Positions 6,492-64,000 of a DNA stretch of 64,000 bases are shown piece after piece (position 1 is the stretch's first letter; each line of letters opens with the position of its first letter). The DNA lies in NCBI RefSeq assembly GCF_003940805.1, contig NZ_CP034328.1, positions 3,224,001 to 3,288,000 of the forward strand. The letters run 5' to 3'. Below the pieces are notes generated by a model. It made no database searches and had not been told where the DNA came from. It worked only from the letters and a program-made list of their open reading frames with translations. The DNA comes from Tabrizicola piscis (GTDB taxonomy: Bacteria; Pseudomonadota; Alphaproteobacteria; Rhodobacterales; Rhodobacteraceae). Both the position numbers and the translations under genes were made by a program.

Positions 6492-7346
6492 TCAGTCCTT
6501 GCAGGGAATGACCGTTTCGACGATTTCACTACCTTTGCGTGCAGTGATCGTGCAAACCTTCTCGACCTCCGGGGCGGCCTCGACGACCGCTTCTTCGCGC
6601 ACGATGCCAAGCATGGTGTCGGTGTCGATCTCGATCCGTTCGGTGACGGTTTCCGTGCCGTCGCCGACCAGCGACATTGAAAGCTGCCCTGTTGCCTGGG
6701 CTTGTGCAAGGCGCGCCACCTGTTCCGGGGTCGCGGCCACTGTTACTGTTCTGGCATTAGTGCCGGTGGCCAGCTCGCCGCCGGAAAAGGTGTTGTCGAC
6801 CGCAATGATTTGCATCGAGCTTTCAATAAGCCGCGTCACGTTGCCGTTGACGCCACTGATGCCGCCCGTCCAGTAGATGTCGATGAAGCTGTCCGGCTGG
6901 ACAAAGCCCGCAACGCCCGAGGCGACGCCGACGCGGATCTGGAAGGCGCGCATCCCCGGCTGCAGTTTCGCGGTCAGGCCTGCAAGTTCACCAGGTGCAG
7001 TGACGCGGCTGGCCAGAACGGGTTCAAACGCCTCGGTCGCGCGCATCACATAGCGCGGTCCGGGGGCATTTTCCGGGAACAGCTCGGCCGGATCGCGGAA
7101 GATTGCTTCTGGCAGGGCCTGTTCCGGCCAGTAGATCAACTGGACATCTTCAGGCGTCAACGGATCGCCATAGGCCATCTGCCTGTTGAACACATAGACT
7201 TCGACCAGTTTGCCGGCCGCCGCGTTGAAATCGCGCTCGCGCTGCAAGAGCGCCTCGGTCTGCGCGATATAGCCCTGGATCATATAGACGGCAGCGCCCG
7301 CCAGGGCCATGCCGACGACCAGGACCAACCCGAATACTGCTCTCAT
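6492..7346 (-). CDS. cpaB: CpaB/RcpC Flp pilus assembly protein
   Basis: This 284-residue protein has an N-terminal membrane anchor (residues 1-24, MRAVFGLVLVVGMALAGAAVYM) and a SAF-type domain (about 45-120, VYVFNRQMAYGDPLTPEDVQLIYWP). The RcpC/CpaB domain follows (about 130-235, containing GVASGVAGFVQPDSFIDIYWTGG). It is a periplasmic part of the tad machine that probably aids secretin assembly. The gene stands between the second pilin gene and cpaC. A GC-rich hairpin at 7410-7443 lies between it and the pilin. Confidence 0.92.
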   Translation of the reverse strand: MRAVFGLVLVVGMALAGAAVYMIQGYIAQTEALLQRERDFNAAAGKLVEVYVFNRQMAYGDPLTPEDVQLIYWPEQALPEAIFRDPAELFPENAPGPRYVMRATEAFEPVLASRVTAPGELAGLTAKLQPGMRAFQIRVGVASGVAGFVQPDSFIDIYWTGGISGVNGNVTRLIESSMQIIAVDNTFSGGELATGTNARTVTVAATPEQVARLAQAQATGQLSMSLVGDGTETVTERIEIDTDTMLGIVREEAVVEAAPEVEKVCTITARKGSEIVETVIPCKD

Positions 7347-7409
7347 ACCGTTCCCCTAAGTTGCCTGTACGTCGCGACGCGACCTGTCAGCCTTCAAGTT
7401 AATGCGACA

Positions 7410-7443
7410 AGGGCGCCCCATCAAGCCAATGGCTGGGCGCCCT
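7410..7443 (-). terminator. GC-rich hairpin between pilin 2 and cpaB
   Basis: A 9-bp inverted repeat (AGGGCGCCC at 7410-7418 and GGGCGCCCT at 7435-7443) lies between the second pilin gene and cpaB. It has no clear T-tract on the minus strand, so it is more likely an attenuator or RNA-stabilising hairpin than a full terminator. It could keep pilin transcripts more abundant than cpaB transcripts. Confidence 0.45.
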
Positions 7444-7465
7444 GCGTGCCGATAGTGGTCAGGAC

Positions 7466-7648
7466 CTACTCCAGAAATTGGTGATACAGTCCGATCGTAT
7501 CACCGATATAAATGGCCATGTCGACAATGGCGCTCTGGATCGGGGGCATCACGAACACCGCGAACACCACGACGCCGGCCGTCAGGACGACCCAGTCGAC
7601 CGTCACGGCACCGTCTTCGTCACCGAGAAAGCTTTTCACGCCCTTCAT
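7466..7648 (-). CDS. Flp-type IVb pilin-like protein (pilin 2)
   Basis: This 60-residue protein has a short charged leader (MKGVKSFLGDEDG), a Gly, then AVTVDWVVLTAGVVVFAVFV, which looks like a prepilin-peptidase site followed by the hydrophobic assembly helix. The processed protein would be about 47 residues. The usual Glu5-Tyr6 pair of Flp pilins is Asp5-Trp6 here. The motif GAVTVDWVVLTA is shared exactly with the neighbouring pilin at 7847-8050. It is the second of two tandem pilin-like genes at the head of the tad locus and could be a major or minor pilin. Confidence 0.85.
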   Translation of the reverse strand: MKGVKSFLGDEDGAVTVDWVVLTAGVVVFAVFVMPPIQSAIVDMAIYIGDTIGLYHQFLE

Positions 7649-7794
7649 TCCGGCACCCCGTCCCTGGCTACAGGTTCTGCTGCATTCACCTGACCCTGCT
7701 GTCCGATTGCGGCGAAACTTTAACCAAGTTCAGACAATTGATAGCAGTTTCTTGCAAGTGTCCCGGTTGACCAAGCCGGTGTCCAAAAGAAATC

Positions 7795-7820
7795 GACCGC
7801 GCCTTTTCACAGGCGCGGTC
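7795..7820 (-). terminator. Terminator after the first Flp pilin gene
   Basis: The arms GACCGCGCC (7795-7803) and GGCGCGGTC (7812-7820) form a 9-bp perfect stem with an 8-nt loop. On the minus strand it is followed by CGATTTCTTTT. It lies 27 bp past the stop codon of the pilin at 7847-8050 and should make most pilin transcripts monocistronic. Confidence 0.8.
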
Positions 7821-7846
7821 GTAAAGACCAGAATGGTCAGTTCAAA

Positions 7847-38366: not shown

Positions 38367-38442
38367 GCCCAGATAGCTCAGTTGGTAGAGCAGCGGATTG
38401 AAAATCCGCGTGTCGCTGGTTCGATTCCGGCTCTGGGCACCA
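38367..38442 (+). tRNA. tRNA-Phe (anticodon GAA), integration target
   Basis: This is a 76-nt tRNA with encoded CCA. The acceptor GCCCAGA pairs with TCTGGGC, the anticodon stem-loop contains TTGAAAA (GAA), and the T-arm is GGTTCGATTCC. Its 3' half from the anticodon loop onward is repeated at 54347 and 55578, so it is the attB/attL of integrative elements. Integration leaves the tRNA intact. Confidence 0.97.
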
Positions 38443-49975: not shown

Positions 49976-51175
49976 CTATCGGTCCGGGAAAAGTCCCGGC
50001 ATCCAGTCGCTTGCCAGCCTCGCCGGAAAGCTCAGCCGCAACGGCGCGCGTTGGGTGAATGACTTCAGCGCCCCCACCGCCAGCAGTTCCGCCGTGACCT
50101 TTCGCGCCTGGCGGTCGCTGACGGCGAGAAGGCCGGGCAGTGCCCCGCGTTCAACTTCGCCGGACATCAGCGCTTCGCGCATGACGATATCTGCGCCCTT
50201 AGTCAGCGTGCCCTTGGCCATCTCGGTTTTGCACCAAGTCATGATCCGCTCTCGCAGGCGTTGTGGTTGCATCAAGGTTTCCATGAAGCGGACTTGGTCG
50301 ATGCAGGCTTCAAGGAAGAAGCTTGCGAATTCGGCCAGGCGCTGTTCGGATAGGTTTCCTCGGCCATCAGCGCCGCCATGGCGGGGTTCGTCGGCGGCCA
50401 TAAGGCGCTGCTTGTATTCTGCATCCCGGCGGGCGAGGCCTCGCGCAGCGGACCAGAGGCCATCGGAGCCGACGGTGTCGCGCAGCATGGCATGGGCGAC
50501 CATTCGCGAGACGCGGCCGTTCAGGTCAACGAACGGGTGAACCCAGACAAGGCGATGATGGGCACAGGCGGTGGCGATGATCGCGCCGCTTCGGCCCTGA
50601 AGCCCGTACATCTTGCGCATGTGCGCCAGAAGGCGCGGCACAGCGCCAGGGCTGGGGGCGACGTGCTTGCCGACCTGGACAAAGTCCGTGCGAAATTCGC
50701 TGGGGACAATAGGAAGCTCTGTGCCGTCCGGCCTGTGCACGACGAGCAATTCCGGCGGCAGGTTCCGGCAGAAGCGACGGTGGATTTCGCGCAAGCTGTC
50801 CGGGGCAAGCGGGTGGTCGGTCAGGCCGCCCGTGTCGATCCAGCGCTGCACCTCGATGTGGGCAACGGCCTCGAGCTGCAGGTTCCGTTTCTCGGCGTCG
50901 GCGCTGAAATCCTTGTTCAGGGCGCGCTCGATGTCGATCGGGTGGGTGTTGTGACCCTCGATCAGGTTCGAGTAGTAGCAGTTCATCGATCTGACGAGAT
51001 CGGCCAGCGGCGCGCGGATGCCTTCGGGTAGAGACGACCGCAGCCCTGACGACTGGCTCGCCAGTTCAACGGCTAGGTCGTTCAGTGGCGCCCGATACTT
51101 TGACGCTTCTTCAGGGATCAGCGGTTCGACGATGGTTATCGCCTCGCCCTTGTCTGCTATGGTGTCGGTCGACAT
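49976..51175 (-). CDS. Fic family protein (class II, self-inhibited)
   Basis: This 399-residue Fic protein carries the active-site loop HPFVDLNGRVSR (about 213-224), the AMP-transferase signature. The N-terminal inhibitory helix has SNLIEG (about 69-74), the [S/T]xxxE[G/N] motif that blocks ATP binding in class II Fic proteins. The C-terminal 100 residues include a winged-helix region (ALPGLLAVSDRQARKVTAELLAVGALKSF) that may bind DNA or target proteins. It could be a regulator, a toxin or a defence protein. It is convergent with the cargo operon and upstream of the mob block on the same strand as mob. Confidence 0.9.
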   Translation of the reverse strand: MSTDTIADKGEAITIVEPLIPEEASKYRAPLNDLAVELASQSSGLRSSLPEGIRAPLADLVRSMNCYYSNLIEGHNTHPIDIERALNKDFSADAEKRNLQLEAVAHIEVQRWIDTGGLTDHPLAPDSLREIHRRFCRNLPPELLVVHRPDGTELPIVPSEFRTDFVQVGKHVAPSPGAVPRLLAHMRKMYGLQGRSGAIIATACAHHRLVWVHPFVDLNGRVSRMVAHAMLRDTVGSDGLWSAARGLARRDAEYKQRLMAADEPRHGGADGRGNLSEQRLAEFASFFLEACIDQVRFMETLMQPQRLRERIMTWCKTEMAKGTLTKGADIVMREALMSGEVERGALPGLLAVSDRQARKVTAELLAVGALKSFTQRAPLRLSFPARLASDWMPGLFPDR

Positions 51176-54346: not shown

Positions 54347-54396
54347 TTGAAAATCCGCGTGTCGCTGGTTCGATTCCGGCTCTGGGCACCACTTAA
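54347..54396 (+). repeat. Internal att site (50-bp copy of tRNA-Phe 3' end)
   Basis: This is identical over 50 bp to 38398-38447. It forms the right end of the integrase-bearing element (38448-54396) and the left end of the following 1.2-kb interval. It is not a tRNA gene, since the 5' half is absent. Confidence 0.93.
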
Positions 54397-54692
54397 GCCA
54401 ACAAAAACAGATACTTACGCGTAAAGCGGCACGCTGACTGGTAATCCGCTTGTCATCAGGCAGAAGCGTTGCACATCAACAGCTTAGTGTTTGATTCTGT
54501 TGAGACATCGGGTGCCACCGCGGGCGTCCAAAGAGACATGGGAGAGACACGGAGATGTCCCCGTCAGTCGCTCGACAGAACTGCCTCCCGTGGTATCCTG
54601 TAAATGTACCTCACGGTACTTACTAGCCTTGCGACCGAGACCCTGGCCACTCGCAAGGCGGCTAGGGTTTTGGTTTGCTAACAAATATAAAC
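54397..54692. other. AT-richer leader of the second interval with GAGACAT repeats
   Basis: No gene is supported in these 296 bp. Copies of GAGACAT/GAGACAC lie at 54502-54508, 54533-54539 and 54544-54550. A hairpin (GCCTTGCGA at 54626-54634 with TCGCAAGGC at 54651-54659) stands 34 bp before the YopX-family gene. The repeats recur near the right end of this interval. Confidence 0.5.
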
Positions 54693-55067
54693 ATGAGAGA
54701 AATTAAGTTTAGGGCATGGGGAAACGCTTACACCGAAGAAAATAAAATTGAAATGAGGTACTCTGACAAATATCCTGATTTGTCATGCTTTTGGAATTTG
54801 GCAGTGAATCATAGCTATGCCATTGATGTAATGCAATACACAGGTCTACATGATGCAAATGGAAAAGAAATATACGAGGGTGACTTAATCGAATGTCAAT
54901 ATTGCAAAAATGAACACGGGCAAGTAATTTGGAATAAAGAGATGCTTCGATTCCAACTTAGATGGCATGATACGTGTTGCGGCAATGCTCGTCTAACATC
55001 TATTGATAGCTGGTCCAAAATCAACGGCAACTTCTACGAAAATCCAAAACTTCTGGAGAAGTCATAG
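54693..55067 (+). CDS. YopX family protein
   Basis: This 124-residue protein has the full YopX pattern: MREIKFRAWGNAY, MQYTGLHDANGKEIYEGDLIEC, GQVIWN, and WSKINGNFYENPKLL. YopX proteins are common in phages and integrated elements and their function is unknown. The DNA is much richer in A+T than the neighbouring element, so it has a different origin. The ATG at 54693 is preferred to that at 54675 because the domain starts there. Confidence 0.85.
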   Translation: MREIKFRAWGNAYTEENKIEMRYSDKYPDLSCFWNLAVNHSYAIDVMQYTGLHDANGKEIYEGDLIECQYCKNEHGQVIWNKEMLRFQLRWHDTCCGNARLTSIDSWSKINGNFYENPKLLEKS

Positions 55068-55538: not shown

Positions 55539-55577
55539 CCACCGCAACGTGTTGAAAGGGCACACAATCTCCTTTGA

Positions 55578-56105: not shown

Positions 56106-56840
56106 TCACAAGGATGATTGTGCCGCAATATGTCCCGCAAACTCAGTGACGAAGCGCTTGAGGTCAGTTAGCTCACTCAGGCACCGGAAATTTCCATCGG
56201 CCTCTGCATCCTTTGAGGACAGAAGAAACGCTGCACTTGAGTATAGGCGCTCCTGTACTAAGCGACGGCACAGCAAATCGTACCTCTGTGAGTAAGATGC
56301 ACCTTTGAATTCTGGAAAGACCGGAAAGTGTGGTTGTTGATCTCTGACCGATGAGCTCGATGCTGGGCAGTCTTCGACCAACATAACCAAGCCCAAAAAT
56401 GGCCTTGGTGCATCCTTGCCAAGCGCGCCCTCTCGATAGGCAGTCCATAGATCGTGTGCGGTCCCGATCGACTCCTCGGTGCGATTGTTGAAGTTGTTTC
56501 CGAAGGAGGGCCCTACTTGGGACTTAAACTCTAGAGCTGCAATAAGACGTCCCTCGTTGATAACCAACATATCCCAAAGCTTGGTAGGTCTAAAGAATCC
56601 CGGAAGCGTTAGTACGCTGCGTTGCACGCAGACTTGGGCGTTCGGCATTCCGTTGTTCCGGATCAGCGACTCCGCCAGTGCGAGAAAGCCGTCCATATTC
56701 TTTCCCGCTGTTACCGCCCCCCGTGCGCCGACATCAAGCTTTCCGCTTGCTTCTTGCTGTCGAATAGCGGCATTGCGGTTTCCCCAAAAGAGCTTAACGG
56801 CTTCGCGTGCTTGTACTTCATAATTTTCAAGGTTGAGCAT
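56106..56840 (-). CDS. PaeR7I/XhoI-type type II restriction endonuclease
   Basis: This 244-residue enzyme has a length typical of PaeR7I-like enzymes, which recognise CTCGAG. The PD-(D/E)XK core is visible: the Asp in [12 protein letters not shown] (Asp90) and E-x-K in [10 protein letters not shown] (Glu104, Lys106). [19 protein letters not shown] follows as in the family. It lies 4 bp downstream of the methyltransferase on the same strand, so methylation would start first. The specificity is inferred from the family; several CTCGAG sites occur in the window. Confidence 0.85.
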
Positions 56841-56844
56841 AATA

Positions 56845-58608
56845 TCAAATGAACTTTCTAAGTGTCGTTACTTCGTCTTTAGTTAGCTGGTAGATGCTAG
56901 AAACCGCGTCCAATGTACGACTGGATGATGTCGGCTTCTTTCCTTCATTTGTAAGTAACTGTTGCAAATCCATTGGGATATCGTGCCAAGCCGGAAGGCG
57001 TATTCTTCGAAGATTCTGCGCTTGGAAACGGAGATATCCTCCACGCATCTTGGTGGAGTACAGAGATACAAACATCTTGGCTATGCCGCATTGAAGTAAT
57101 GCTCTTAGCGCATGGAGGTCCCATGTTTCAGAGACGATGTAATACAAGTTGTGGTGCGGATAGTAGTGTCCGGCTTCGTGTACAAACTCGGCGGTCCCTC
57201 GGATGTCGGGAATCAAGAGTTTTTCGCGGACATATAGATCAGAATATATTCTATCGATAGTTCGATACCATGAATTTGGGTTTTTGGCTGCAACATGCCG
57301 TTTTCGAAGAGTCTCGGACCTTTCATACAAGTACTCTGCGAGCTTAGGAAAGTCAGATAGATTCACCAACTTTCCATCTTCACCGAACGGATTGACTACT
57401 CCGTATCCTCTCCAAGAGATCGATCCATTGAAAAGATCTTTCGTCATCACTAGTCGAAGTTTTCTCGATGGTTCTACATTTATTGCGTCATAGGCTCCAA
57501 TGAATGCTTGATCTGCGCCAGTTGCAACGCCTATGCCGATGCGGCAACCCGCAGCTTCTATTTGCGGGAAATTTGCTTCGATCCGGCGTACCACAGTGAG
57601 ATCGTGATCTGCACTAAGTAGCCATGGCTCGTTTGCTTTGTAGCCTTTCCTGGCGCCAGCACTAGGGGTGGCGGCGCTTATCCCGGTAAGTGTGAGGTCT
57701 GCACACAGCTTTGCAAGAGAAGTCTTATCTAAGTCAGGATTCGCGGCAACACGCGTGGCACCTGGTTTCCCGCGTCTAAGGACAGTGATCGCTGGATAAG
57801 CAGAAACCTCACTCAGAAAAGCGTTCGTATTGGTCATGTCGATATAAACATCTAATGAAAAGTTGTTGGCTACTTTTTCACGAAGTTTTTGACCATACTT
57901 GTTCTTCATCCATCGATCTGCGCAGATGAAGCCGCATTTTCCTTCTTTTTGTAGGAGATCGAGGGATCTCTCAATAAACGGGACATAGAGATCTGCACGA
58001 TCGTAGATCGTCGAATAGCGAGACCGATACTCAGCTATGAGCGAGTCGGGAATCTGATCTTGGCGAACATAGGGTGGATTGCCTACGATATGCGTGTAAT
58101 CATCCGCGAACTCCAGAAGGAGAAAGTCTCCCTGTCGAAGCCAACTACTTACAATGGTTGACGCATCTTGTGAGGAAATCCCTTCTCCTTGCAACACTGA
58201 GACGATTTCATCGCATGTTGAGGAATAGGCCGTCTTATATAGTTCGACTGCGGATATTGCTGGGGCAAGACGTTTGACAGTAAGTCCATCGGGTTCGAGT
58301 CTTGCAGAGGCAAGGAGTCTCCTTACAATTGGTCGGAGGAAGCCGCCGGCACCGAATGATGGCTCCAGAATGCGGTAGGTTAACAATGGGGCGTCCGCTG
58401 TGTAACCTACAAGATCAAGAATAAACTCCGCCACTTCGGGACGCGTATAGATTGCGCCAAGCTCCACTTCGTTGCCAAAATTTGCTAGTTTTTCGACTTC
58501 CACAGTTGCCGGTTTGCGCCGTCCGTTTGCGGGTGCTGCGTTGGTCGAGTAGGTCAACTGTTTGATCTCCTGCGAACAATGAGGGAACATACCCATAGTG
58601 TAGCACAC
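56845..58608 (-). CDS. PaeR7I-type N6-adenine DNA methyltransferase
   Basis: This 587-residue methyltransferase has SAM-binding motif I in [16 protein letters not shown] (about 79-94), preceded by [16 protein letters not shown]. Catalytic motif IV is [15 protein letters not shown] (NPPY, about 177-180). The rest forms the target-recognition region. It protects the host from the neighbouring endonuclease. The start may be one of the internal Met codons near residue 5-7. A control (C) protein gene was not found upstream. Confidence 0.88.
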
Positions 58609-59639: not shown

Positions 59640-60027
59640 TCGTGCGGGTCGAGGACCGCGACGACCATGGAGGACATAAGCACAACCTGCGTGATTGGTC
59701 GGTGATCACTGAACTGCCAGACGCCGGTGTCGACGTTCATATCGCCACCGAAAACCGCTGACGCTTTCGAGTGTAGCAGCCACACTGAGTAACCCATTCT
59801 ACACCAGCATCATCGAAATCAAACGTACGGGAAAGACCTGGCAGGGCGTCCATCCTCCGATCATCTCGATGCGGGTCTTCCAACAGGTGCAGGACCGAAA
59901 GGCCGGTCGCGTCGGGAAGAAGGTTACCGGCCACAACCATCTTTATCGTGGACTATTCCGTTGCGGCCACTGCGGTGGTGCAATGGTTCCCGAGCGGCAG
60001 AAGGGACATGTCTACTCCCACCCATTG
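59640..60027 (+). pseudogene. Serine recombinase remnant
   Basis: From 59752 the frame reads KPLTLSSVAATLSNPFYTSI, IIEIKRTGKTWQGVHPPIIS, FQQVQDRKAGRVG, then LYRGLFRCGHCGGAMVPERQKGHVY. That is the end of the recombinase domain and the start of the zinc-ribbon domain of large serine recombinases. Just upstream, in another frame, NLRDWSVITELPDAGVDVHIATEN looks like part of the N-terminal catalytic domain. The middle part is deleted and the C-terminus lost. It shows that another mobile element once entered this region. Confidence 0.7.
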
Positions 60028-60119
60028 AGTAGAAGCACTCTCCACCATCTCTGCGAGCGTTGTGTCGGGGATTCAGCTATACTAGATGTTGAGAATCCAC
60101 AAAGAAGACACCCCACATC

Positions 60120-63100
60120 ATGCCAACTAAGCATATTCCGATAGAAAGACGTTTCGCAAGGCCTTCGAAGGATGAGCTGGCAGACCCATACCTGCAGAAC
60201 GAGCTGAGCAGATACTTCCCGTCGCAGGCAACGGGCTGGAAGGAGCTTATTTCCAAGTCACGTGTTGTTGTACTTGGAGAGGGCAAGTGCGGAAAAACTT
60301 ATGAGTTCCAAGATCAGGTTGGCAGGCTGAAAGAGGAAGGGAAACAAGCCTTCTTTTTCAGACTTGAGCGTCTCGCGGACGCTGACCTGATGGACACCTT
60401 GGCTCCAGACGAAGAGCGGCAGCTTCAGCTTTGGCTAGACAGTTCAGATGAACAGCATGCTTGGTTCTTTCTCGATGCAGTTGACGAGTTGAAGTTACGC
60501 GATGGCAGCCTTCGAGTTGCGCTGAGAAAGATACAACGCGTCATTGGGAACAAGACTGATCGTGCTCATATTTTTGTCTCGTGTCGTCCAGCTGACTGGA
60601 ACAATCAAATCGATATGTCTGATATCTCAGAGATGTTCCCGTTTGAGCAAGATGCCAAGGTAACCAGAGCAGAAGAACCCGAAGACCTATTTGTCAGTGT
60701 ACTCAAGAAGGATGCGCCCGGCGATCAAAAGCAGGAGGTTAAGGAGGAAACAGTAAGTGATGGTCCAGAAGTATACGTTTTGCTGCCCTTAGCTGAGGAT
60801 GAGATTTCTGCTTTTGCGACCAAACTTGATCCATTGCGAGCATCGCAGTTCCTGGAAGAACTCGCCAAGAATGATGCTTGGGCACTCTTTCAGTCTCCAT
60901 CCGACATAATAGACGGAATGGCTCTGCTCGGCGAAGTCGGTCACCTTGGCTCGCTCGAAGAGCAAGTCGAAGCGGGCATTCGCATAAAGCTTAGCGAGAA
61001 CGGCGTACGTGCGCGACTTACAACCTTGTCTCTAGCGAAGGCTCGCGAAGGTGCCGAACGCCTGGCGCTAGCCCTTCTCATGACAAAACGCCGCTCATTG
61101 TTGGTAACGAAGAACACTGATGAAGGAAATTCCCTCTTTGTAGGAGACGTCTTGGCTGACTGGAGACCTAAGGAGTTTGCCGAATTGCTCAGCCGTGGGT
61201 TGTTCGACCCATCAGGTGTAAATGCCGTAAGGTTTCATCATCGGGCCACTCAAGAGTATCTCGCAGCTCGACGGATTGAGGGACTCCATAGTCGAGGCTT
61301 GCCTGTCCGCGAACTGTTGCAACTGTTGTTTGCTGATACTTGGGGCCACGGAGTAGTCATTCCCTCAATGGAACCCGTCGCTGCTTGGCTGTCACTGTGG
61401 AATCAGAGTGTCGCAACCGAGCTACGGAAGCGAAAGCCAGACGTTCTGTTTAGGCAGGGGATACCGGGGTCGATGCCCGTTTCACTCCGGTCGACGCTGC
61501 TGCAAGACTTTGTCATAGCATACAAGGACAGTGACTGGCGCGGTATCAGCATCGATGCCAATGACGTTAGACGGTTGGCCCATGGGGAACTTGCTTCCAC
61601 CGTTCGAGACCTCTGGGAGACAGCTTACAAGGGGCACGAAACTAGGGAGCTTCTCCTTGAGCTCATTCTCTACACCCCCTTAAATTCTTGCACTGATCTG
61701 GCCGCCCAAGCTGCAGTGGACGCAACAATAGCTGAGCACCATCGGGTATACGCGATACGAGCACTGTTGTCCGGTGGTGGACCCGAAGAGAAGCGGTTGG
61801 TATCTGAACTTCTTATATCAAAACAACTTTCGGCGAGAATCGTAAGCGCAGTTCTTGAGGAGGCATATCCTGATCCACTAACTCTGCCGGAAGTTGTGTC
61901 GATTGCCAAAGAGACAAGTCAAACGGTCAATTCTGTTCATGGCATAAACTACGCGCTGTACAATCTCGTTCAACACAGAAATCTCCAGACGCATGAAATC
62001 AGGGAGATCCGTGAAGCGCTGGTTGGCATACTTTGGGAGCATCGGACCGCAGAATCTAGAATCTATCAAGCCCACTCCAGGTACGATCATTTCGTTGATG
62101 CAATCTTCGCGGGGTGCTCTCGTGACACTAACCTTGAGGACTTGAATGCAGTTAAGACGTGGGCGCGGGATGTTGCAATTGCCTTTCATTTCGGTGAGAG
62201 GCATGGATCGATAATTGGGGAGAGAGACTGTAATAGCATTCGCGATCGGATATCCTCAGATCCGGATCTCCGTGAAGCTTATTACTGGGCGGTATTTGAT
62301 TTGGATCGCGAACTTAAAAATGGAGGAGGCGAGCTCGACCGATTCTTCTTATGGGATGAGGGGCGCGTTTTTGGAGGCGTCACCGCAAGTGATACCCAAT
62401 GGTTGCTCAGTTCTCTCGAAAACATAGAGATGGCCGAACGCCACAATGCGGCGTTCTATGCAATCATGGATTGGTGGCGCATCAGTAGAGATCCAGTCGT
62501 TTCTGCAAGAGTTCAGGATGCGGTGAAGGGTAGGATTGAGTTGTTGGCTGCCTTCAATGCGTATTTGAATCCGCCAGTCTCAGAAAAGCGGCAAAACTGG
62601 CAGATTAAGAATGAGAAGCGGGAGCGGAAGTACAAGCGAGGAGAAGAGAAGCGTATCGCCGAATGGATCGCGTGGCGAGATACCCTGAATGCTGACCCCG
62701 AAGCCGCTTTTGGCCCTGAAAAGGTGCAGAGTACCCTTTTCAATTTCTTTAACTGGCTCGACATGAGCGGGCAGTCTCAAAACACCTGGGGCGTGTGGAT
62801 CGAACACATAGTTCGCGAAGCGTTTTCACCTAGATTCGTATCCTTATTGAAACTTGAGCTAGCAAAGTTCTGGCGTCAAGCAACTCCTGCGATGTGGAGC
62901 GAGAAGTCACCGGAGGCGCGGAATCAGACATCGAGTCAAACGATACATGCTCTCTCAGCCATCAAGAGCGAAGCGAATGATCACCAATGGGCGCGCCACA
63001 TAGGCGCTGCCGAGGCCGCTCTTGCAGCAAGGCTGTCAACTGTGGAACTCAATGGGTTTGCGCCCTTCTACGCCTCGCTTGAGGCCGCATACCCCGTGGC

Positions 63101-64000
63101 AACTCAAGATGCCATACTGGCAGAATTGAACGCCCAGGTCCGACTACTTGGCCAGCACGACCAGTGTCCCATTATTCATGATATTTACTACCACGGAACT
63201 CTGTCCCTGAAGACGGCCGCATCTACAGGGCTCATACCTCTTCTCGAGACATGGCCGATAGACATGTCCGGCGAGGCACAGACTGCGCTTCGCTACGCAG
63301 TTGACATGATTTCACAGCACGTCCATGACGCCGATCGCAAGATTGTCGCTGATGTGGTGGCATCCCGCCTTACGGCGTCAGTACGGTTCACAAGTGATCA
63401 TGTTTCTTGGCTGCGCGCGCTGTTTATGTTGGACCCTTCGTCTGGGGCCGATCAATGGATCGCGACCACAAACGACTTGAGCTCGCCGGAAGCACGAGAC
63501 TTCGCAGTTACAACAATCGGCTCTCTCTTTGGAGACCGACATCATGGAGGTTCGAAGCCTGACCTCTCGGATTTGGCGATCCCAGAAAGGGCTCGACTGC
63601 TGGCTCGACTACTTCATCGAACTTACCAAGTGGCACACCCGTCAACTGACATCCCACACCACGGCGTTCACAGCCCCGGTGAGCGCGACCTGGCTGAAGA
63701 AGCACGGAGATTTCTGTTCGAAAGCTTGGTGAGCTTGGAGTCTCCCGAGGTGGACGAATGCCTTAGAAAGCTATCTGAGCTTGAAGCATTCTCGCACATG
63801 AAAGATCGGCTTCAACAGATACGCGTGGAGCAAGCGGCCAAATATTCAGAGCGCCCAGCTATGACTGTGAATCAGTTCACCCACTTCGATGCGCAGATCA
63901 ATCTTCTGCCAACCGATACCCGAACAATGCATCTAGCGATGATGAATCGACTCGAGGACTTTCGTCACCACATTCTCGAGAGTGAGTTCTCAAACAGAAG
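60120..64000 (+). CDS. Very large STAND/NACHT-like NTPase (partial, 3' end outside)
   Basis: The frame is open from the ATG at 60120 to the end of the window, at least 1293 codons without a stop. Near the N-terminus are a P-loop, VVVLGEGKCGKTYEF (Walker A at about 53-60), a Walker B of NACHT form, WFFLDAVDEL (about 115-124), and a sensor-like strand, HIFVSCRPADW. The remaining 1100 residues are helical, with repeat-like stretches, as in the sensor parts of STAND proteins. No effector domain precedes the P-loop, so it is missing or lies C-terminal beyond the window. Lying beside a restriction-modification pair, it is a likely antiphage protein. Confidence 0.8.
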   Translation, partial: MPTKHIPIERRFARPSKDELADPYLQNELSRYFPSQATGWKELISKSRVVVLGEGKCGKTYEFQDQVGRLKEEGKQAFFFRLERLADADLMDTLAPDEERQLQLWLDSSDEQHAWFFLDAVDELKLRDGSLRVALRKIQRVIGNKTDRAHIFVSCRPADWNNQIDMSDISEMFPFEQDAKVTRAEEPEDLFVSVLKKDAPGDQKQEVKEETVSDGPEVYVLLPLAEDEISAFATKLDPLRASQFLEELAKNDAWALFQSPSDIIDGMALLGEVGHLGSLEEQVEAGIRIKLSENGVRARLTTLSLAKAREGAERLALALLMTKRRSLLVTKNTDEGNSLFVGDVLADWRPKEFAELLSRGLFDPSGVNAVRFHHRATQEYLAARRIEGLHSRGLPVRELLQLLFADTWGHGVVIPSMEPVAAWLSLWNQSVATELRKRKPDVLFRQGIPGSMPVSLRSTLLQDFVIAYKDSDWRGISIDANDVRRLAHGELASTVRDLWETAYKGHETRELLLELILYTPLNSCTDLAAQAAVDATIAEHHRVYAIRALLSGGGPEEKRLVSELLISKQLSARIVSAVLEEAYPDPLTLPEVVSIAKETSQTVNSVHGINYALYNLVQHRNLQTHEIREIREALVGILWEHRTAESRIYQAHSRYDHFVDAIFAGCSRDTNLEDLNAVKTWARDVAIAFHFGERHGSIIGERDCNSIRDRISSDPDLREAYYWAVFDLDRELKNGGGELDRFFLWDEGRVFGGVTASDTQWLLSSLENIEMAERHNAAFYAIMDWWRISRDPVVSARVQDAVKGRIELLAAFNAYLNPPVSEKRQNWQIKNEKRERKYKRGEEKRIAEWIAWRDTLNADPEAAFGPEKVQSTLFNFFNWLDMSGQSQNTWGVWIEHIVREAFSPRFVSLLKLELAKFWRQATPAMWSEKSPEARNQTSSQTIHALSAIKSEANDHQWARHIGAAEAALAARLSTVELNGFAPFYASLEAAYPVATQDAILAELNAQVRLLGQHDQCPIIHDIYYHGTLSLKTAASTGLIPLLETWPIDMSGEAQTALRYAVDMISQHVHDADRKIVADVVASRLTASVRFTSDHVSWLRALFMLDPSSGADQWIATTNDLSSPEARDFAVTTIGSLFGDRHHGGSKPDLSDLAIPERARLLARLLHRTYQVAHPSTDIPHHGVHSPGERDLAEEARRFLFESLVSLESPEVDECLRKLSELEAFSHMKDRLQQIRVEQAAKYSERPAMTVNQFTHFDAQINLLPTDTRTMHLAMMNRLEDFRHHILESEFSNR

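Follow-up and report, generated by a model that had tools for sequence, protein, structure and literature searches.

A HyoA-like NACHT protein with a likely C-terminal nuclease effector in a presumed mobile island of Tabrizicola piscis

Gene and domain layout

The window analysed here is a stretch of 64,000 nucleotides from the alphaproteobacterium Tabrizicola piscis (contig NZ_CP034328.1, positions 3,224,001 to 3,288,000), which ends inside a gene for a HyoA-like protein that carries a NACHT NTPase, a long arm and a nuclease-like C-terminus. The gene begins with an ATG at 60120 and stays open for 1293 codons up to the window end, the single uninterrupted frame that the initial annotation had described. 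Extension past position 64000, which that annotation had proposed, reaches the stop 445 bases beyond the window (genome position 3288445, window numbering 64445, L003:4446) and gives a complete product of 1441 residues. Because the stop-to-stop frame measures 1450 residues, the start can lie at most nine codons further upstream and no long N-terminal extension is hidden, in agreement with the earlier view that a P-loop at residue 53 leaves no room for an N-terminal effector. The parts of the gene that fall in the window are the following:

60120..64000, + strand: HyoA-like NACHT-nuclease gene, codons 1-1293 of 1441 (reading frame and profile match)
60255..61046, + strand: NACHT nucleotide-binding domain with the first helical domain, spanning about residues 46-309 (borders inferred from the model)
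61047..61292, + strand: winged-helix-like part with the RFHHR..QEYLAA motif at residues 371-383 (borders inferred)
61293..64000, + strand: long C-terminal arm that starts near residue 392 and is helical in its modelled part, to residue 640

The Walker A motif GEGKCGKT occupies residues 53-60 and the Walker B motif FFLDAVDE residues 116-123, both where they had been placed before. They are not chance occurrences, since K59, D119, the acidic pair D122 and E123, and the arginine R156 are identical in all 73 aligned rows. The predicted model of residues 1-640, with a predicted local distance difference test score of 86, has the order of a NACHT-type fold, and its parts can provisionally be named nucleotide-binding domain, first helical domain, winged-helix domain and second helical domain; the RFHHR..QEYLAA motif is of a type that we take to belong to the winged-helix-like part. 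In two fold-match lists the model resembles the NACHT modules of NOD2, NLRP3, NLRC4 and the phage-sensing Avs4, with NLR proteins heading both lists; Avs4 is one of 13 Foldseek matches with an E of 0.001 or lower. This fold, together with the HyoA profile match described below, bears out the earlier identification of a STAND/NACHT NTPase. The usual STAND order of effector, NTPase and sensor is not followed, as the P-loop stands at residue 53 and the nuclease-like domain at about residues 1300-1441.

When conservation per column is averaged over 40-residue blocks, values of 0.56-0.70 are found across residues 41-160 and 241-520. The arm is less conserved (0.37-0.42 at 561-840 and 0.33-0.39 at 1041-1160), and values rise to 0.47-0.64 beyond residue 1160; low blocks also lie at residues 1-40 (0.38) and 161-240 (0.35 and 0.42). 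The variable parts of the arm that follow the NACHT module may, on this pattern of sequence variation, form the sensor for the trigger. The arm had been described as more than 1100 helical residues; helices are seen within residues 1-640, the part to which the strands of the NTPase core also belong, and the end of the protein is alpha/beta, not wholly helical, in the model of a relative, L056.

The last ~140 residues, which lie beyond the window, resemble a PD-(D/E)XK nuclease. All 26 sequences of a first alignment set (25 loci whose frame has at least 1350 residues and whose blastp match reaches 1e-30, together with the query) keep seven motif residues, as do 72 of the 73 rows of a second set, from which 9 of 81 loci with a best frame below 1300 residues had been removed; the exception, L132, is a viral contig, and the two sets overlap in at least one locus (L008/L097). 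A scan with alignment A1 yielded 134 loci (80 kept), an initial collection scan with the single protein as query having found no relative. The pattern of the motif also matches 30 of 2000 shuffles of the protein and is weak on its own, so that the conserved columns, and not the motif alone, are the evidence for a nuclease. The D...ExK motif is present in the protein's own sequence, and the alpha/beta core is seen on L056, whose modelled nuclease domain folds like restriction endonucleases. Its leading structural matches are mostly restriction enzymes, and among the best is Can2, for which nuclease activity on both DNA and RNA is reported; Foldseek alone gave weak support for this fold. The C-terminal PD-(D/E)XK domain is thus, from conserved sequence and the modelled relative, the likely effector. 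Of the three options left by the initial annotation, an effector that is C-terminal, separate or absent, the conserved motif and the fold of the relative speak for the first.

Among 15 distant loci the motif is present in nine and absent in six (L027-L031 and L034); five of the six frames without it extend to the limit of the retrieved sequence, and a stop lies in L027. No Walker A was found in L026, L031 and L033 by the pattern used. Candidates for a stand-alone nuclease gene were rejected at L021, which lies at a contig start, and for the second match of G462, close to a contig end. At L017 (883-2253, - strand) a HyoA-like nuclease end is fused to what looks by eye like a nicotinate phosphoribosyltransferase stretch, a probable deletion scar, and this candidate was set aside as a remnant. 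A two-gene version of the system was likewise rejected: L068 and L122 shift frame at different places, L049 is annotated as two genes, and both parts of L101 lie in one frame with an intervening stop, as judged from coordinates. These split versions are taken as decay or sequence errors.

Family membership and distribution

The full protein scores 1105.6 bits against NCBIfam NF058534, "NACHT domain-containing antiphage protein HyoA", with residues 8-1440 aligned to model positions 1-1428 of 1430, and the window part alone scores 931.3 bits. The match is full-length, but the score stays under the curated cut-off of 1200. When the model was run on 40 records picked from the loci in hand, 29 passed this cut-off and 11 missed it; the two domains and their catalytic residues are common to relatives above and below it. 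In a tree of 52 rows, built by a quick method with support from the Shimodaira-Hasegawa-like approximate likelihood ratio test only, the protein pairs with L056 (support 97) within a clade of 14 rows, 12 of which are under the cut-off, while L057 (1258.7 bits) and L058 (1249.7 bits) are over it. Further rows below the cut-off sit elsewhere, namely L014, L015, L070 and L016, whose branch is very long; rows over it are spread across several clades. The protein therefore nests among proteins that pass, and because cut-off and tree disagree it is filed here as HyoA-like and not as a certified equivalog.

A second named family, EruA (NCBIfam NF058535), is a distant sister. The window protein reaches only 174.4 bits against its cut-off of 1000, in a partial match that is best over residues 209-856. 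L018, which passes this cut-off (1145.8 bits), likewise has a P-loop close to its frame start (position 63) and, towards the other end, at position 1259 of 1369, an E-D-ExK-Q-Y motif. Other collections gave little: Pfam returned only sub-threshold matches for the 1293-residue piece and the full protein and one for the C-terminal piece, PADLOC returned no match for the 1293-residue piece or the full protein, the full protein matched no family of PADLOC-DB 2.0.0, Avs included, at E up to 1, and PDB sequence searches brought up nothing meaningful.

At E 0.001 the HyoA model matches 37 of 398 genomes of the phylum, seven of them over the cut-off, and the match is near-full-length in 12 of the 398, own genome included. 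Among the 61 genomes searched as relatives, the T. piscis genome alone has the protein; 31 of the other 60 belong to the same genus. Matches occur in 66 of 72,556 plasmid records, in 18 of which a single locus spans 80% or more of the query, and in two of 50,697 phage records, both under one Acinetobacter phage name; in the one inspected, the neighbours look bacterial. The rows of the tree span several phyla, including Pseudomonadota, Nitrospinota, Verrucomicrobiota, Thermodesulfobacteriota, Rhodothermota and Binatota. The initial annotation had called the protein uncommon, a description that fits poorly with the 12 near-full-length matches and with a family that NCBI already names antiphage.

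The island and its neighbours

The gene appears to lie in a mobile island of stacked segments, about 29.6 kb in all, delimited by a tRNA-Phe gene and three copies of its 3' part. The features of this region are:

38367..38442, + strand: tRNA-Phe gene, presumed attachment site of the island
49976-51175, - strand: Fic/DOC protein beside the relaxase, first island segment
51357-52907: MbeA-like relaxase, below the cut-off of its model, first island segment
starts 54347: repeat of the tRNA-Phe 3' part, 50 bases exact
54675-55067, + strand: YopX-family protein (Pfam) between two tRNA repeats
starts 55576: repeat of the tRNA-Phe 3' part, about the same stretch as the copy at 54347, one base different
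56106..56840, - strand: XhoI-like restriction endonuclease (Pfam XhoI 5.3e-89; PADLOC REase_II)
56845..58608, - strand: Type II adenine DNA methyltransferase of the Eco57I family (profile matches, including PADLOC)
starts 67988 (window numbering, outside the window): repeat of the tRNA-Phe 3' part, 29 bases exact
L003:6671-7264 and 7271-7828, - strand: tyrosine integrase with an Arm-DNA-bind_3 domain, split in two adjacent frames, adjoining the 67988 repeat

The restriction system that had been placed beside the NACHT gene is there, 1.5 kb from it, and consists of an XhoI-like endonuclease and an Eco57I-type methylase; both the system and the NACHT gene lie between the repeats at 55576 and 67988. 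Just upstream of the NACHT gene, at about 59760-60050 (+ strand), a remnant resembles by eye the end of a large serine recombinase, with its zinc ribbon.

A partner census of 71 loci that took up to four neighbours per side, with frames of at least 90 residues, found no recurrent partner: in the 486 neighbours the most widespread family, which by eye resembles an ABC transporter ATPase, occurs in four loci. As no neighbour family recurs widely, the HyoA-like protein probably acts alone, as a one-gene system. A test for defence islands, made without a control, was weak. From 248 neighbours within 3 kb, 201 had at least 120 residues and 120 of these were screened (two long ones skipped); they matched 178 PADLOC families at 1e-10, none with more than two members, a count of families and not of neighbours.

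Proposed mechanism and its alternatives

The protein is probably an NTP-gated DNase that senses phage and then kills the infected cell or arrests it, a HyoA-type system in which one protein is both sensor and executioner. The long arm (about residues 560-1160) would bind a phage-made or phage-induced signal, which would release the NACHT NTPase for nucleotide exchange and oligomerisation, as in NLRs and Avs. Oligomerisation would then bring together or uncover the C-terminal PD-(D/E)XK domains, which would cut DNA and stop the infection at the expense of the cell. This reading is supported by the NACHT fold, the catalytic motifs conserved in both domains, the nuclease fold of the relative, the lack of a recurrent partner and the mobile island with its restriction system. 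Phage sensing, oligomerisation and the destruction of DNA are suggested by analogy with bNACHT25 (PMC12169576) and with Avs (PMC12931631), and cell arrest and a role of this protein in defence are presumed.

The nuclease might instead work as a restriction enzyme does, cutting only invading phage or plasmid DNA once a phage is recognised, so that the cell survives. Restriction enzymes are most of the leading structural matches of the domain and a restriction system lies 1.5 kb from the gene, but beside the gene there is no recurrent methylase or other partner that would mark self DNA, and bNACHT25 and bNACHT32, once activated, degrade the host cell's own plasmid DNA (PMC12169576), which makes this unlikely. 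Less probable still is that the nuclease targets RNA, or that the C-terminal fold chiefly binds nucleic acid and is itself the sensor. Can2 is among its best fold matches, and it occupies the place that the sensor has in other STAND proteins (PMC12931631; PMC12169576); against this, the ExK motif is kept in 72 of 73 rows, which argues for catalysis, and the most variable stretches of the arm precede the nuclease and do not lie within it.

Many STAND proteins regulate transcription, and metabolic or transport genes are neighbours in several loci, as would suit a regulator or housekeeping protein without a role in defence. Such a role is very improbable in view of the sporadic distribution, the plasmid-borne copies, the two matches in phage-filed records, the position in a tRNA island and the antiphage name of the NCBI family.

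The kind of protein, a bacterial relative of the NLR immune sensors of animals, is known and its family already named antiphage; the interesting part is the reversed layout. Two papers describe STAND or bacterial NACHT proteins as having three parts, with the effector N-terminal and the sensor C-terminal (PMC12931631; PMC12169576). The clade 6 proteins bNACHT25 and bNACHT32 are, by description and not by direct comparison, similar antiphage NACHT proteins with a PD-(D/E)XK DNase, but their nuclease is N-terminal and their sensor C-terminal, whereas here the nuclease is far C-terminal (PMC12169576). Avs4 and other AVAST STAND proteins differ from the HyoA-like protein, which has no N-terminal effector and no PADLOC match. 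A C-terminal effector as such has precedent in STAND NTPases whose predicted effectors are glycosyltransferase-4 domains at the C-terminus (PMC8195603). The DefensePredictor paper mentions validated systems with NACHT or PD-(D/E)XK domains, and neither "Hyo" nor "Eru" occurs in its main text (PMC13092281). As antiphage names, HyoA and EruA were not found in the literature searched, which covers few subscription papers or preprints, and a naming paper may exist elsewhere; the name EruA is used for an Escherichia coli regulator and other things.

HyoA and EruA could be two branches of one class of bacterial NLR relatives with reversed order, in which the NACHT module comes first, a variable sensor arm lies in the middle and a PD-(D/E)XK DNase stands last, a plausible grouping that we propose tentatively. 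If it is right, the geometry of activation would have to differ from that of NLR and Avs assemblies with N-terminal effectors: the nucleases would either be placed on the rim or bend back over the ring, with sensing relayed outwards. The family, with members from several phyla, appears to keep the effector type of bNACHT25 at the opposite end, and makes it simple to test whether the NACHT switch is indifferent to the side on which the effector stands. Annotation by the N-terminus only would label such proteins as effector-less.
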